A stretch of DNA of 39,193 nucleotides from an uncultured Planctomyces sp. (GTDB lineage: Bacteria; Planctomycetota; Planctomycetia; Planctomycetales; Planctomycetaceae), in the NCBI GenBank assembly GCA_937904325.1, contig CALGTK010000135.1, positions 1-39,193 on the forward strand. The letters run 5' to 3'. A model generated the notes under the pieces. The model did no database searches. It was not told where the DNA came from and saw nothing but the letters and a program-made list of their open reading frames with translations. Both the position numbers and the translations under genes were made by a program. Of this stretch, positions 32,952-38,455 are shown piece after piece (within the stretch, counting starts at the first letter, position 1; each line of letters starts with the position of its first letter).

Positions 32952-33938
32952 ATGCCCATGCCAATCGGTCATCAGCACGCTTCGTGTATTTTCTGTTTAG
33001 CAAGTGCTTTGTTGAACGCTGCCAGCTTGAATGCGCAAGAGAAATCAGCACAGACTGTAGACGGCAATTCGGTTGTTCGTGCTCCGTTGGGCGATTCGGA
33101 GATCGTAATAAGGACGACGTCGCGATTGGCTGGAGCGATCGATTCTTTGACCTGGAACGGGCAGGAATTCATCAACAGCGCCGATCACGGACGGCAGTTG
33201 CAGTCGGCGGCGAATCTGGACTTCGGGTCGACGATGACTCCCGAGTCGTTTAATCCAACCGAAGCCGGATCACGACTGGACGGTGCCGGGAAGGCTTCGA
33301 CGAGCCAGTTGCGGCATCTCATTGCGGACGGAAACCGGCTTCAGACAACGAGCCTGATGGCGTTCTGGCTGGCTCCAGGTCAGAAGTCTGGCGGCATTCA
33401 TCTCGCCAAAAACAAAACGAAGCTTTCGAACCATCTGCTGACCAAACACGTGCAGATTGGGTGGAAGAATCTGCCCAACGTGATCTCGTACGATGTAACG
33501 TTCGGGCTGCCGATCAACGAGCATCATCGATATGCGCAGTTCGAAGTTTTGACCGGTTATATGCCGCCGGAGTTCGAATCGTTTTTAAAGTTCAATCCGG
33601 ACTCGAGCGAGTTTGAATCATTGACGGACGGCCCTGGTGAGCAGAAGTGGCCGGTCGCTCTTTCAACAACGGATGGACGATTCGCGATGGGCATTTACAC
33701 GCCAAATCGACCGGGAGAAAACTGGACCGGTCCGGGCTATGGACGTTTTCGGTTCCGCCCACAGAAGGTCGTCAAATGGAATTGCGTCTTCCGATATCGC
33801 GTGGCAAAGGGCGTGCTTCCGGGTGACTACTCATTTCGGACGTTCGTGATCGTCGGGACGCGCGAAATGGTTCAATCAGCAATGCAACGTCTACATGAAG
33901 AGCCGGTTTCGACACTCAGGCAAGATTCCGCTGGTTAG
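32952..33938 (+). CDS. secreted protein of unknown function
   Basis: I do not recognise this 328-residue protein. It has a signal peptide (CIFCLASALLNAASLNA). The body is rich in beta-strand and aromatic residues, with AGAIDSLTWNGQEFINSADH early, then FGLPINEHHRYAQFEVLTGYMPPEF, KWPVALSTTDGRFAMGIYTP, and GRFRFRPQKVVKWNCVFRYR late. The pattern suggests a beta-sandwich of the galactose-mutarotase or glycan-binding type, but no catalytic motif is seen. It starts 23 bases after the CXXCH-hydrolase gene, so the two likely form one transcript, perhaps with the ThuA gene, as a small exported sugar-processing group. Its stop overlaps the stop of the convergent DUF1559 gene. Confidence 0.75.
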   Translation: MPMPIGHQHASCIFCLASALLNAASLNAQEKSAQTVDGNSVVRAPLGDSEIVIRTTSRLAGAIDSLTWNGQEFINSADHGRQLQSAANLDFGSTMTPESFNPTEAGSRLDGAGKASTSQLRHLIADGNRLQTTSLMAFWLAPGQKSGGIHLAKNKTKLSNHLLTKHVQIGWKNLPNVISYDVTFGLPINEHHRYAQFEVLTGYMPPEFESFLKFNPDSSEFESLTDGPGEQKWPVALSTTDGRFAMGIYTPNRPGENWTGPGYGRFRFRPQKVVKWNCVFRYRVAKGVLPGDYSFRTFVIVGTREMVQSAMQRLHEEPVSTLRQDSAG

Positions 33939-35470
33939 TCACCGGCGTTGCGAGTTGCCAGACGCTGAAGAACTTTGGTAGACGTCTTGTTCGAGAAGAA
34001 TCGGACACTGCCGTCTCCTTGAAGAAAATGGGCTCCGGTTCCCGCGGCGTTTCCGAAGCTTGACAGTCGTTTGTTGAGCGGGCCTTCGATGGTTCTCCAG
34101 TTTTCAGGATTGCCCCAGGCAGGAAGTGCCCTCGCGATTTCACCAGCAATCAGAGTTTGCGACATCCCGTCTAAGACATCTGCGGTTCTGATCGCGGAGT
34201 TCTTGTTGAAAATTCCGGTCGGTAGCAGGCCCAGGTCAGTTTGAATGAGGCCGCCGACGCCGGCGAAGTGAGTTGTTGCCAGGCCTCGTGCAGTTGGCTT
34301 GTGCTCCATCGTTGGAAGCAGAAAAGTAGTGACCGGTTGTTGCATTGCAGACGCGTTTGCTTCGTCGTTCCAGGGTTTTGAAAGCTGGATTGAATCGTAA
34401 ATTTCCATATGTCCGAGGTACGGAAGCAATGATGTCATCCAACTGTGCATGCCAGTTTCCATACCTTCGTCGTCGACGGCAAAAGTTCCACCGGCTGGAA
34501 ACTGACCTTTTTCGATGGCGTAGTCACCCAGAGCTTTGTTGATGCTGCTGAGATTCGATTCGATGACTTCTTTAGCCGAGCGGTTTCGCCATGACTCGCC
34601 GAGTTCGTTCAGGTAGGCCGGTCCGGCGAAGATGCCAACCAATCCGAGCAGCAATCCGACAGGAGCCAGCATTTGCGGAGCTGACTCTTTAAGTCGACGG
34701 TTGGAACCGAGAGTTTGATAGCCGAGCAGCAGTGCGTAGCTTCCCACAAGCGTTGCGGGGAATTTGGCGAGCATTGCTGGCAACAGGCAAAGTCCGCAAA
34801 GGAGCACCGACAAAACTCCCGCTACAACCGAACCCGTGCCTCGCGGAAACTTTGGTGAGCTTTCGGAATCGGCCGATGCGTCGTCGGTTGATCGTGAGAA
34901 ATCTGCCGTGTCGAGATCGCGCAGCGGAGAATCGACTTCCCAGCCGTCTTCCTCATCGTCATCCGCGAGCGAGAAATCGTCGTCGGATAGATCGTCATCG
35001 AAATCTGAGGGGTCGTCTGAGCCTGCGAACTCGGAGTCCAATTCTGAAACGTCATCGTCTTCGTTCGCAGGGTCATCTTTATTCTGAGCGAAAGATTCCG
35101 AGATGTCTTCGTCATTCTCGGGTGACGCCGCATCTTCAGCCTGTGATGCCCCCATCATGGCCCACAGGCCGCGAGGTTGTCCGTTGGGCTCTGGTGTCTC
35201 TGCTGTTGCAGATGCTTCTTCGAAAGTGGCTGAACCTGCACCATCACTTTCGTCCGCATCGTCAACTTCTGATGAAGCCTCGTCAGTCGCCGGTCGCCCC
35301 ATGACTTCCCACAGACTGCGAGCGGAGCCTGCCGGCGAAGCGGCGTTTCCGATTGACACCTCTGAGCCGCATTTCGGGCACGCGAGACTTCCGCTCGATG
35401 GTTCTTGCGTCTCCGCTTCGAAGGTGTGGCCATTCGGGCAAATGACGGTTTGGGCGTTGGAGTCAGGCAT
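33935..35470 (-). CDS. zinc-ribbon, acidic linker, membrane and DUF1559 protein
   Basis: The 511-residue product starts with a zinc-ribbon-like segment holding CPNGH (about 11) and CPKCG (about 32). A very acidic Ser/Asp/Glu-rich region (about 50-210) follows, in which a short LW-x-x-MG unit occurs twice (SLWEVMG, GLWAMMG). Three hydrophobic helices lie at about 215-300 (SVVAGVLSVLLCGLCLLPAM, LVGSYALLLGYQTLG, MLAPVGLLLGLVGIFAG). The rest is DUF1559 (SBP_bac_10), a planctomycete pseudopilin-like domain, with SWMTSLLPYLGHMEIYDSI, LDGMSQTLIAGEIARALP and a closing HFLQGDGSVRFFSNKT. The canonical N-terminal prepilin signal of DUF1559 proteins is replaced by the zinc-ribbon and multi-span part. Function unknown. 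Confidence 0.83.
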   Translation of the reverse strand: MPDSNAQTVICPNGHTFEAETQEPSSGSLACPKCGSEVSIGNAASPAGSARSLWEVMGRPATDEASSEVDDADESDGAGSATFEEASATAETPEPNGQPRGLWAMMGASQAEDAASPENDEDISESFAQNKDDPANEDDDVSELDSEFAGSDDPSDFDDDLSDDDFSLADDDEEDGWEVDSPLRDLDTADFSRSTDDASADSESSPKFPRGTGSVVAGVLSVLLCGLCLLPAMLAKFPATLVGSYALLLGYQTLGSNRRLKESAPQMLAPVGLLLGLVGIFAGPAYLNELGESWRNRSAKEVIESNLSSINKALGDYAIEKGQFPAGGTFAVDDEGMETGMHSWMTSLLPYLGHMEIYDSIQLSKPWNDEANASAMQQPVTTFLLPTMEHKPTARGLATTHFAGVGGLIQTDLGLLPTGIFNKNSAIRTADVLDGMSQTLIAGEIARALPAWGNPENWRTIEGPLNKRLSSFGNAAGTGAHFLQGDGSVRFFSNKTSTKVLQRLATRNAGD

Positions 35471-35554: not shown

Positions 35555-36502
35555 TCACGTTGGCTTGTGTAGACGCGAGCTGACGTCGCGGAGGCGGCTG
35601 ACCTGCTGGATCAACCGTGGCAGCCCGTCAAGTCCCATGAGAAGAAGCATGAGGTAGCGGAAGACGGCGAAGATGTCGCCTGCCTGGACGGTCGAAAGGT
35701 GGCACGCTCGGAACAGAACCGCGACGATCGCTCCGAGAATGAAACATTCCATCAGACCGAAGTTGATGGCCTCGGCGTTGGAAAGCTTGATCCGCCAGCG
35801 TGCGACTTCGTCGAAGTGGTTTCTGATGTCGATCTCATTTTGAGCATGGATGACGTCGACCTCTTTTTCGAGTTCGTCATGTAAACCTCGGCTGAGACGA
35901 CGAGTCCACTTCGAATAGTGGTGACTGAGCAGCGCCGCCGGGATCAGTAATGCCAGACAGCAGGCGACGATCATCCAGTCGTACCACGCCAGCATGATTA
36001 CCGAACCGGCGACGGAGAATCCGACTTTCATCAGCATCGGGATTGAGTGTTCGAAGAATTCAACGAATTCGCGAGAAAGCGACGCACGCGCGGTGACGCG
36101 TGAGACGTCAACTCCGGATGCTCTCTGAGAAACAATCATTTGTGTGGCGAGGGCTGAGTAGATCGCTGAGAACATTCGCGTATCGTAAACCTGACGAACA
36201 AGACCGACTAAAAGATGCAAAACATGCTGCCCAATGAGCATGCCGACTCCGAGCATCTGCTCGTTCAGCAGATCGTTGATCGCCCAGCCCAGCGCAAACG
36301 GCTGAGCGAGACGGAGCAAATTCTCGATCGCGAACAGTGTGTAAGTAGCGAGAATTCCAAGTCGATTCTGTGTGAATAATGTTTTGAGGCGAAATGGAGA
36401 AGTGTCAAACATCGGTCGGCGGATGGCCGAGGGATTAGACTTAAGCGGAGTCGGAATCGGGCTGGCGTCAACGTGTGAAATGACTGGAATGTCGATGGGC
36501 AC
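35555..36502 (-). CDS. ABC-type six-helix transmembrane protein lacking an ATPase domain
   Basis: From GTG 36502, preceded by AGGAGG seven bases upstream, the product is 315 residues. After a Pro-rich N-terminus it has an exporter-type transmembrane domain. Helices are visible at LGILATYTLFAIENLLRLAQ, MLGVGMLIGQHVLHLLVGLV, MLMKVGFSVAGSVIMLAWYD, MIVACCLALLIPAALLSH, INFGLMECFILGAIVAVLF and VFRYLMLLLMGLDGLP, with long cytoplasmic helices between. The protein stops right after the last helix (QVSRLRDVSSRLHKPT). No Walker A/B or LSGGQ sequence follows: only 84 bases separate it from the next gene. It resembles the ABC six-transmembrane-domain family (PF13748-like). It is the last gene of the MNIO cluster, 82 bases after the partner gene, so it is a candidate exporter or receptor for the modified peptide. 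Confidence 0.78.
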   Translation of the reverse strand: MPIDIPVISHVDASPIPTPLKSNPSAIRRPMFDTSPFRLKTLFTQNRLGILATYTLFAIENLLRLAQPFALGWAINDLLNEQMLGVGMLIGQHVLHLLVGLVRQVYDTRMFSAIYSALATQMIVSQRASGVDVSRVTARASLSREFVEFFEHSIPMLMKVGFSVAGSVIMLAWYDWMIVACCLALLIPAALLSHHYSKWTRRLSRGLHDELEKEVDVIHAQNEIDIRNHFDEVARWRIKLSNAEAINFGLMECFILGAIVAVLFRACHLSTVQAGDIFAVFRYLMLLLMGLDGLPRLIQQVSRLRDVSSRLHKPT

Positions 36503-36584
36503 CGCACGTCCTCCTGAATTCATTTCGCTCTACTTCTTCTTGAACCGGGGCCCGTAAGCTTGACCTCAGCTGCTCACCGTCCAC

Positions 36585-37355
36585 TTAGCTGAAAGCGATG
36601 AGACCGACTTCGCTGCAGTCGTTCAGCATCTCCATGAGCGACTCGTCGTCGAACGACGTAGTCAGATCGAGTTGCTTTTTCAAACTTGCGAGCCGGCACG
36701 GGCCGATTTCAGAAAGCGTCTGCACGAGGGCTCGGCCTTCCCGTTCAAGAATCACCGTTCGTACTTCGGTTTGAAATGCGAAGAATAAAACTTCAACACC
36801 GTCAGCCGGCGATTCTTCCTCACCGATCAACAGGCCAGTTTCGAACACGGCTCGAGTTCTCATTGGGTTGAGATGAATTCTTAAACCTTCGTTCGACTCA
36901 AGTTCTGAAACGAGTCGGTCGTTCAGACTGGCCAGTTCCTGGAACCTGACATGACCGAGACGGTTTCGTCGTCCTGCTTCTTCAACGGTGAACCGACTCT
37001 TGATGACCAGAATAAGATCCCGTTGCTCTGGAGTCAGCTTGATGACCGTCGGCAACCAGCGGACGAAGCGGTCCGTATCGCTGGTGCCGGTGTCGTACGC
37101 GGCGAGGGGAATTTCTCGGATGTACCGGCTGATCAGGCCGGGCAACTCTTCCATGGTCTCTGCAAACATGTCGAGCTGGTCGTTCAGTTTGTCGGCACGC
37201 TTGTCGAGATTTCCCGACGTAAACATCTCGACGAGACAGCACGACTGTCCCGCAGCAACGTCGCCGTGTACGACGCCGTTCTTTGCAACTGCCAGCGACG
37301 TGGCGATGCGCGAAAGTTGTTCCGTGTAATCTTTTAAGAGAGTGTTGTCACTCAT
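36585..37355 (-). CDS. putative MNIO partner protein
   Basis: I do not recognise this 256-residue protein by sequence. ATG 37355 overlaps the MNIO stop codon as ATGA, so translation of the two is coupled, as for known MNIO partner proteins (MbnC, TglI, BufC). It is soluble and mostly helical (1-150; DYTEQLSRIATSLAVAKNG, DKRADKLNDQLDMFAETMEE). It has a Cys pair at 39-40 (GQSCCLVEMF) and two further Cys at 220 and 247. The last 50 residues (ALVQTLSEIGPCRLASLKKQ onward) look like a winged helix, the fold type that often binds RiPP leaders. It shows no evident DUF2063 pattern. The role as leader-binding partner is inferred from position. Confidence 0.75.
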   Translation of the reverse strand: MSDNTLLKDYTEQLSRIATSLAVAKNGVVHGDVAAGQSCCLVEMFTSGNLDKRADKLNDQLDMFAETMEELPGLISRYIREIPLAAYDTGTSDTDRFVRWLPTVIKLTPEQRDLILVIKSRFTVEEAGRRNRLGHVRFQELASLNDRLVSELESNEGLRIHLNPMRTRAVFETGLLIGEEESPADGVEVLFFAFQTEVRTVILEREGRALVQTLSEIGPCRLASLKKQLDLTTSFDDESLMEMLNDCSEVGLIAFS

Positions 37356-38194
37356 GCTGACACCTCGGCCTGTTCTGCGATTTCGCGAACGCGGCGAATT
37401 TCTGATCGCCAACCGGCTTCGTCCGGGAAGTCCTGGTCGCGCTCGACGAAGACCGCATCCACTTTGCCACGGCCCTTCTCGAGCGAAAACCGATACAAAT
37501 CCCAGACCGTGTCGGGAATCGGTTCGGAGTGACTGTCGATGTACATTTTCGATCGTTCGTCGAAGAAGCCACCAGCCAGGTGCATTTGCACAGACTCGGC
37601 GTGCGGCATCACGGACTCGATGAATTCGTACGCGTCGAAATTAAAGTTCTGCGCGTTGGCGTAAACGTTGGTGACGTCGAGCAGCCAGCCGCAGCCCGTA
37701 CACTTCAGCATTTTCGAGACGAAGTCGGCTTCGGACATCGTGCCTTGAAATTCGAACATGTACGCGATCGTTTCAACGTAAAAGCGAGTGTCGCCAAGTC
37801 GCTTCTGAATGTGGTCGATGTTTCTGCAGGTTGCGGTTAACGCGGCTTCGGTCCACGGCGGCGGAGCGAAGTGCCCCATTTCAACGCCGTTGTCGCCGTT
37901 TCGAGTAAAGCCGAGATGATCGCTGACGGAAGATGCTCCGTTTTCGATGGCGATCGCTCGGAGGGCTTCGAGGTAGGTTTGATTCGGTGGTTCCGGGCTG
38001 GCGACAGAAAGTTTCAATGCGTGAACGCTGACATGGTCGATGTCCAGATCCTGAAGGTAGCGGTCGACTCGGAGTGGATCGTCGGCTCGTTCGAAGGTGA
38101 TTTCGGCGGCGTTGATCGCCGGGTCGTCCATGATTGGCCGATTCTGCTCGCGAATTGCATATCCGATGGCGGGGGTTGTGGCGGAATCGTGCAC
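37352..38194 (-). CDS. DUF692 multinuclear non-haem iron oxidase (MNIO)
   Basis: From GTG 38194, with AGGAG six bases upstream, the product is 280 residues, the normal DUF692 length. The TIM-barrel pattern runs from AIGYAIREQN at the start. Expected metal-ligand regions are present: VSVHALKLS (His58), SDHLGF (Asp92, His93), YVETIAY (Glu141), LLDVTNVYANAQNFNFD (Asp173, Asn176), QMHLAGG (His205), YIDSHSEPIPDTVW (Asp220, His222) and FVERDQDFP (Glu251, Asp253). The usual ENP(S)-type motif is ETI here. DUF692 enzymes use a di- or tri-iron centre to oxidise Cys (or Asp, Asn) in precursor peptides. The upstream Cys-rich peptide is the obvious substrate. The partner gene overlaps its stop. Confidence 0.93.
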   Translation of the reverse strand: MHDSATTPAIGYAIREQNRPIMDDPAINAAEITFERADDPLRVDRYLQDLDIDHVSVHALKLSVASPEPPNQTYLEALRAIAIENGASSVSDHLGFTRNGDNGVEMGHFAPPPWTEAALTATCRNIDHIQKRLGDTRFYVETIAYMFEFQGTMSEADFVSKMLKCTGCGWLLDVTNVYANAQNFNFDAYEFIESVMPHAESVQMHLAGGFFDERSKMYIDSHSEPIPDTVWDLYRFSLEKGRGKVDAVFVERDQDFPDEAGWRSEIRRVREIAEQAEVSA

Positions 38195-38260
38195 GGCTGG
38201 CTCCTGTCGAAATTCTGCTGACGGCTTAACAGGTCGAAGATACAAATCCAAAATCAACTG

Positions 38261-38294
38261 CCGTGCTGACAACCGGTGTCTGGTATCAGCCCGG
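38261..38294 (-). promoter_or_regulatory. imperfect hairpin between precursor and MNIO genes
   Basis: In the 123-base spacer the minus strand reads CCGGGCTGATACC, loop AGACACC, then GGTTGTCAGCACGG. It pairs as an imperfect stem with CCG/CGG, GCTGA/TCAGC and ACC/GGT helices. Without a T-run it could be a partial terminator or RNA-stability element, giving more precursor than enzyme mRNA. Confidence 0.4.
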
Positions 38295-38317
38295 CAGTCG
38301 GATTTCGAGTCGCCGAT

Positions 38318-38455
38318 TTACCAGCGACAACGACAGCAGCGACAGCAACGGCAGCAGCAACGGCTGGCGGCCGCTTTCTTTGCTCGTTCTGAAGTCCGCA
38401 GCGATTTAATTTCGCGAACGGCTCTCTGTCTTTTTTGAGTGGCTGAGTTCGTCAT
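38318..38455 (-). CDS. putative MNIO RiPP precursor peptide, Cys-rich core
   Basis: ATG 38455, preceded by GGAGAGGA, opens a 45-residue peptide. Residues 1-32 are hydrophilic and very basic (MTNSATQKRQRAVREIKSLR, then TSERAKKAAASR), with no signal peptide; this would be the leader. Residues 33-45 are CCCRCCRCCRCRW: eight Cys with single Arg spacers and a terminal Trp, the likely core. The gene is 123 bases upstream of the DUF692 gene on the same strand. The frame could be extended to 38545, but those codons precede the strong ribosome site. The core is encoded by a TGC/TGT/CGN-rich run, so a low-complexity artefact is the alternative. The peptide could bind metal, be oxidised to thiooxazole-type rings, or both. 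Confidence 0.72.
   Translation of the reverse strand: MTNSATQKRQRAVREIKSLRTSERAKKAAASRCCCRCCRCCRCRW

Follow-up and report, generated by a model that had tools for sequence, protein, structure and literature searches.

A probable leader-guided RiPP family with a modular Cys-Cys-Arg core, encoded with a multinuclear non-heme iron oxidative enzyme in planctomycetes

The precursor gene and its operon

The window analysed here is the whole stretch of 39,193 nucleotides of contig CALGTK010000135.1, from an uncultured Planctomyces sp. On its minus strand lies an operon that is headed by a precursor peptide gene and continues with genes for a multinuclear non-heme iron oxidative enzyme (MNIO), a TglI/NGO1945-like partner protein and an ABC-type transmembrane protein. 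The features are as follows.

38318..38455, minus strand: precursor peptide gene, 45 codons plus stop (ATG 38455-38453, stop 38320-38318), with related precursors elsewhere
38455..38360, minus strand: leader, residues 1-32
38321..38359, minus strand: core CCCRCCRCCRCRW, residues 33-45, three CC-R units, a 9-bp repeat in the DNA
38393..38419, minus strand: leader motif VREIKSLRT (consensus VREL..LRT), from the precursor alignment and a leader-only HMM
38255..38300, minus strand: stem-loop right 3' of the precursor stop (z -3.34 for the whole gap between precursor and MNIO)
37352..38194, minus strand: MNIO enzyme (PF05114, E 3.1e-54, 184.4 bits against a cut-off of 25)
36585..37355, minus strand: partner protein, 256 aa, PME-type-2-like, with a predicted N-terminal helical domain and C-terminal RRE fold
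35555..36523, minus strand: ABC-exporter transmembrane domain (PF13748), 322 aa, without nucleotide-binding domain (Pfam match, structure model and Walker A check)

The minus-strand frame 38455..38318 translates to MTNSATQKRQRAVREIKSLRTSERAKKAAASRCCCRCCRCCRCRW, and a ribosome-binding site, GGAGAGGA, is visible in the sequence 7 nt 5' of its ATG. Cys makes up eight of the final 13 residues, and the first 32 contain ten Arg or Lys and no Cys; the composition is as the original prediction had claimed, and its reading of the peptide as a precursor with a sharp border between leader and core was borne out. The peptide has no match above cut-off to any Pfam or NCBIfam family (weak matches, for example to DUF2477 with E 0.011, were dropped), and inspection of the 32-residue leader revealed no hydrophobic stretch of the kind found in a signal peptide. 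Hairpins that differ in sequence are stable behind the precursor stop in many orthologues. The window has a stable one in this gap, but in one genus several rows (L047-L064) have only a weak one, and we therefore treat the hairpin as a side feature. It probably tunes expression of the precursor relative to that of the enzyme, which would suit a system producing precursor in excess over enzyme.

For the MNIO, a start at GTG 38194 was preferred over a longer TTG-initiated frame reaching to 38272. The longer frame is probably unused, because the GTG is where the alignment starts and has a ribosome-binding site in front of it, and because the corresponding frame in genome G447 has a stop. The ATG of the partner gene overlaps the MNIO stop codon (ATGA).

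The partner protein has no Pfam match, and its profile returned nothing when compared with PDB sequences; we therefore used fold comparison. The structure model (pLDDT 91.7) matches TglI (8hi7; Z 13.9, rmsd 4.2, 224 residues aligned) and NGO1945 (3dee; Z 13.5, rmsd 3.5, 192 aligned), with a weak match to MbnC (7dz9_C, Z 5.5). About residues 140-256 match RRE-bearing proteins such as TbtB, NisB, MccB and PqqD, and the partner is predicted from its model to carry a C-terminal RRE fold. With E up to 1 allowed, the matches listed for 32 partners include none to DUF2063, and NGO1945_C was matched in one of the 32 (E 0.12). Antoine 2025 (PMC12452194) describes PME-type 2 partners as having a DUF2063-like plus RRE fold without the DUF2063 signature; the present partner has this fold, no DUF2063 match and a gene placed after the MNIO gene. 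Antoine and co-workers also report that the type of partner is linked with the presence of Sec signals in precursors; a precursor lacking such a signal, paired as here with a type-2-like partner, is consistent with a group other than the bufferins.

The model of the transmembrane protein (pLDDT 79.1, first 43 residues unreliable) matches ABC-type exporters including TAP, TmrAB, PCAT1 and Atm1 (Z 17 to 20). A Walker A motif was found in none of 21 relatives checked, one of which is a 7-residue fragment only. An SbmA-like reading of this ATPase-less protein was considered and set aside, although it may still be right; SbmA is not among the 50 matches listed for its fold. The gene follows that of the partner at 19 of 34 loci; some absences are contig ends and others are real (e.g. 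L040, L046, L048). Neither a leader peptidase nor an ATPase belongs to the conserved operon. Conserved neighbours were clustered, not all being named, and none is broadly recurrent beyond the MNIO, the partner and the transmembrane protein, so they provide no metal-resistance or copper-stress context. A DUF1559 gene (33935..35470) was excluded from the system, as it does not recur at this position outside the nearest relatives of the window's genus.

Distribution of the precursor and its linkage to the MNIO

A sample of 150 genomes of the family was searched with the window MNIO as query. Some MNIO was present in 91 genomes at E up to 1e-10, and the close MNIO clade, defined by bits above 370, in 29. 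We found a related precursor directly upstream of the clade MNIO in 24 of these 29 genomes. In another four (G257, G266, G435 and G457) the precursor is on a different contig, and in the last (G403) the contig ends 102 nt upstream of the MNIO.

A precursor profile built from 26 linked (adjacent) copies matched 33 places in 29 of the 150 genomes at E below 1e-5. These strong matches fall in 27 of the 29 genomes with a clade MNIO versus two of the 121 others (Fisher test), a comparison whose P value is not to be taken literally, as the genomes share ancestry and the profile was derived from copies adjacent to the MNIO. As far as linked copies go, the agreement between precursor and MNIO is thus in part circular; this does not apply to the unlinked copies or to the scarcity of matches in the 121 genomes without the clade. 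The unlinked precursors of the same family are L096 and L097 (both G266), L098 (G257), L099 (G435) and L100 (G457), and their position away from the MNIO operon suggests modification in trans. Genomes G473 and G511 have a related precursor, and no MNIO of the close clade was found in either in the search of the 150 genomes. The two precursors (L101 and L102, the latter on a contig of 3 kb) have the core RC[DG]RCCRCSRCW.

Within the phylum, the profile matched five of 392 genomes at E up to 1e-4. An exact search for CCRCCRCRW in the same 392 genomes returned only the genome from which the window comes, because core ends vary. A scan of named genomes yielded 34 relatives of the MNIO, and the deposited title of every record concerned is that of a planctomycete. 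The record titled Gemmata sp. IIL30 contains a Gemmata-type operon (L135).

Thirteen of the 48 rows of the MNIO tree have no recognised upstream precursor: the four with unlinked copies, the one at a contig end, and eight at which no precursor was recognised (L060, L061, L062, L123, L154, L160, L161 and L164, of which L123 and L154 are identical). L160, L161 and L164 form a sister MNIO group with Asp at position 16 and Trp at position 254, and may have different substrates. The stretch of about 1100 nt before the MNIO of L063 (G460) contains a membrane-type frame that ends in a Gly/Cys tail, GGCGGGCGGGGGGCGGCGD, and is somewhat reminiscent of TIGR04222 proteins.

Modularity and constraint of the core

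We collected 40 distinct precursors by regular expression, which missed the Gemmata-type precursors and that of L155 and shortened a few N-termini. Only 12 of the 40 end in Trp, so this residue is not conserved, and a reading of Trp as the defining end of the core is not supported. Among 34 precursors with CC-R cores, 21 have three units and 13 have two, and both states are present inside the window's own genus. Changes between the two states number at least eight on the MNIO tree (48 rows, with L063 and L065 excluded; 27 of the rows scored), the states being assigned by hand with L039 (FCR-CCR-CCR) as three; scoring L039 as two gives nine changes, and omitting L039, L054 and L137 gives seven in 24 rows. 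Comparison of core length among orthologues, proposed as the check on a modular core, thus revealed two or three CC-R units under a conserved leader, with seven to nine changes on the tree.

In the six-codon block CCRCCR of 33 CC-R precursors, pS is 0.81, with synonymous sites near saturation, and pN is 0.011; as these rows were chosen by a pattern containing CRCCR, part of the low pN in the core follows from the selection, while the synonymous drift does not. The nine-codon leader motif of the same precursors has pS 0.57 and pN 0.19. Broken frames or unconstrained drift of Cys codons, which the original prediction had named as counter-evidence, were sought in the CC-R orthologues and not seen, and in more distant precursors Cys is retained within repeats of other kinds. 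Row L032 has a stop inside its untrimmed upstream extension. At the DNA level the window's core forms a weak tandem repeat of 9 bp (3.1 copies, 84% match) that could expand, in keeping with the suggestion that simple-repeat expansion produced or lengthened the core.

Related leaders also precede repeats of other types (C-R-S, C-x-R-G and L-E-R-C-G-R), and the following cores were found behind them.

L133: repeat RCCRYCRSCRSCYSCRSC...
L135, L156 and L157: repeat SCRRGCSRGCNRGC...
L058: core FCRGCRRCRSCRRCRRCRC
L059: core (LERCGR)n
L134 and L155: short FCHGCH core

A leader-only HMM found a match upstream of 31 of the 48 MNIO loci, and all 31 matched frames end in a Cys core, 27 of them of CC-R type; this is a freer test, but most of the matched loci had themselves supplied leader rows. 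The leaders of L059 and of three Gemmata-type rows are too divergent for the HMM and were recognised by eye. The partner's RRE probably recognises the leader through its VREL..LRT motif. G416 (L044) has three tandem precursor genes with near-identical leaders and two-unit cores, upstream of the MNIO at distances of about 300 to 1436 nt.

The MNIO, its relatives and the proposed product

Among family models, the window MNIO scores 152.8 bits for BufB, 135.7 for HvfB, 75.3 for ApyH, 41.0 for ChrH and 32.2 for MbnB. The first two scores are below the bufferin and captophorin cut-offs of 310 and 360 bits (NF050167 and NF003818), and the last is below the cut-off of 325 bits of the MbnB equivalog model. 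The closest solved MNIO is 3bww (E 2.4e-25), and the other solved relatives are TglH (8hci, E 5.9e-16) and MbnB; in PMC13419390, 3bww is given as 72.4% identical to HvfB, a thiooxazole former. The iron ligands that PMC10880893 reports for TglH map to H58, H93, E141, D173, N176, H205, D220, H222 and E251. None of these nine positions varies among the 20 close MNIO rows, and in the wider set each ligand is kept by 45 to 47 of the 48 rows.

FonB is described in PMC12668002 as contacting a substrate Glu through Arg15 and Arg16 and as packing Phe250 beside the Cys. These selectivity sites appear to match R15/E16 and D253/Q254 of the window MNIO, as judged from an alignment with plasmid-borne, mostly bufferin-type MNIOs from which FonB itself is absent and of which row OWN2, a misframed stretch, was disregarded. 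Position 16 is Glu in 41 of 48 MNIO rows, and position 254 is Gln in 37. All 27 rows with CC-R cores have Gln at 254, or Glu in the case of L159. Asp or Ala stands there instead in the five loci whose cores are Arg-rich with spaced Cys (L058, L133, L135, L156 and L157), and L059, L134 and L155, with other cores, also have Gln. This pattern would fit an enzyme matched to its core; it needs to be read cautiously, as it was noticed post hoc and several rows share ancestry.

Bufferins and captophorins (BufABC, FonABC and the HvfABC oxazolin) have the same order of precursor, MNIO and partner and several Cys per precursor. The oxazolin/fontiphorin type has repeat-based cores like those found here, and BufB and HvfB give the nearest MNIO scores. 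However, as PMC12452194 and PMC12668002 describe them, bufferins and captophorins have Sec signal peptides, DUF2063 partners and precursors of EGKCG, Cys-Lys or DUF2282 type, whereas the planctomycete system combines a transmembrane protein of ABC type with a CC-R core. This system falls outside the bufferins and captophorins, because three tested features of those families fail: no signal peptide was seen, no DUF2063 match was obtained and the MNIO scores are below the family cut-offs.

Pearlin TglHI is alike in its partner, TglI being the closest fold, and unlike in that the similarity of the window MNIO to TglH is weaker; its precursor and core also differ from the planctomycete ones. Methanobactin MbnABC shares a short precursor, Cys in the core and an enzyme of the MNIO family, but the MbnB score is far from its cut-off and the fold match to MbnC is weak. 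The Gemmata-type core, (CxRG)n, resembles TIGR04117, the Cys-Xaa-Xaa-Xaa repeat radical SAM target (E 3e-5), but that precursor scores 24 bits against a cut-off of 50, the window peptide has no match to the model, and the conserved neighbour here is an MNIO gene. What the system has in common with the broad class of MNIO-modified RiPPs is an MNIO with the full set of iron ligands, an RRE partner (by fold only) and a linked Cys precursor in 24 of 29 genomes. Our literature searches did not turn up a planctomycete MNIO precursor of CC-R type. The main text of PMC12452194 mentions neither planctomycetes nor CCR, and its unlabelled clusters could contain this clade.

The status of the peptide as a precursor and the modularity of its core are well supported, and we consider it highly likely that it belongs to an undescribed leader-guided RiPP family made by an MNIO. 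The strongest evidence is the presence of the MNIO, partner and transporter genes directly downstream of the precursor, which the original prediction did not take up. The RRE of the partner would bind the leader motif and feed the core to the MNIO, which would oxidise core Cys, probably once per CC-R unit, so that the count of units would set the number of modified sites. The product would be a cationic, sulphur-rich array of Cys and heterocycles. By kinship with HvfB/BufB alone, the likeliest product of the core Cys would be a 5-thiooxazole, which we put forward tentatively; otherwise the core chemistry may be oxazolone/thioamide formation or new.

A rival view of the chemistry, which leaves the RiPP reading untouched, is quite possible if short of an even chance: the MNIO could install on CC-R a change other than thiooxazole, namely the oxazolone/thioamide pair of methanobactin, the carbon excision that TglHI performs, or one heterocycle formed jointly by the two vicinal Cys. 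The partner fold nearest TglI, the Gln at the selectivity site instead of Phe or Asp, and the vicinal Cys, which is not the motif that PMC12668002 names for characterised thiooxazole formers, all point this way, whereas the MNIO sequence is nearer to BufB/HvfB than to ApyH, ChrH or MbnB. It is improbable that the peptide is an unmodified metallothionein-like or antimicrobial Cys-Arg peptide merely near an MNIO gene. The unlinked copies, and the G473 and G511 copies in genomes where no clade MNIO was found, are what such a peptide would lead one to expect, but the linked order holds in 24 of 29 clade genomes, and the unlinked precursors in four genomes keep the leader motif and coexist with MNIO and partner. 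A functionless low-complexity frame created by the weak DNA repeat in the core is exceedingly unlikely given synonymous drift with amino acids kept, a conserved leader and several repeat types under the same leader.

Returning to the MNIO-made RiPP, its product might bind copper or another soft metal, a suggestion made because of the analogy with bufferins and captophorins; the neighbouring genes give it no local support. The original prediction had likewise suggested a cationic product suited to soft metals or membranes, with perhaps one ring per Cys pair. The ATPase-less ABC transmembrane protein may well carry the product across the membrane, either drawing on an ATPase from another source or working without one. 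A fuller combination is rather doubtful as a whole: a planctomycete RiPP class whose MNIO would read vicinal CC-R with an acidic residue at the FonB Arg position that contacts substrate Glu, would convert each CC pair into a mixed heterocycle/thiol chelating site, would vary the number of sites by gain or loss of 9-bp units, and would export the product through an ABC-fold carrier without ATPase. Taken together, the precursors form a series, supplied by nature, that pairs a single leader and enzyme family with two or three CC-R units and with several other Cys-Arg repeats. This series opens the questions of how an MNIO picks its Cys, whether substrate charge and the choice of neighbour are set by residues 16 and 254, and what planctomycetes use such peptides for.

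The genome from which the window comes has a second MNIO gene (L174; G000:C232:31601-32380) that is nearer the HvfB type (243 bits; PF05114 344.6 bits) and has one in-frame TGA near its N-terminus, reflecting either a mutated gene or a sequence error. At L065 (G456:C684), an MNIO without query residues of about 102-242 lies beside an intact partner gene.
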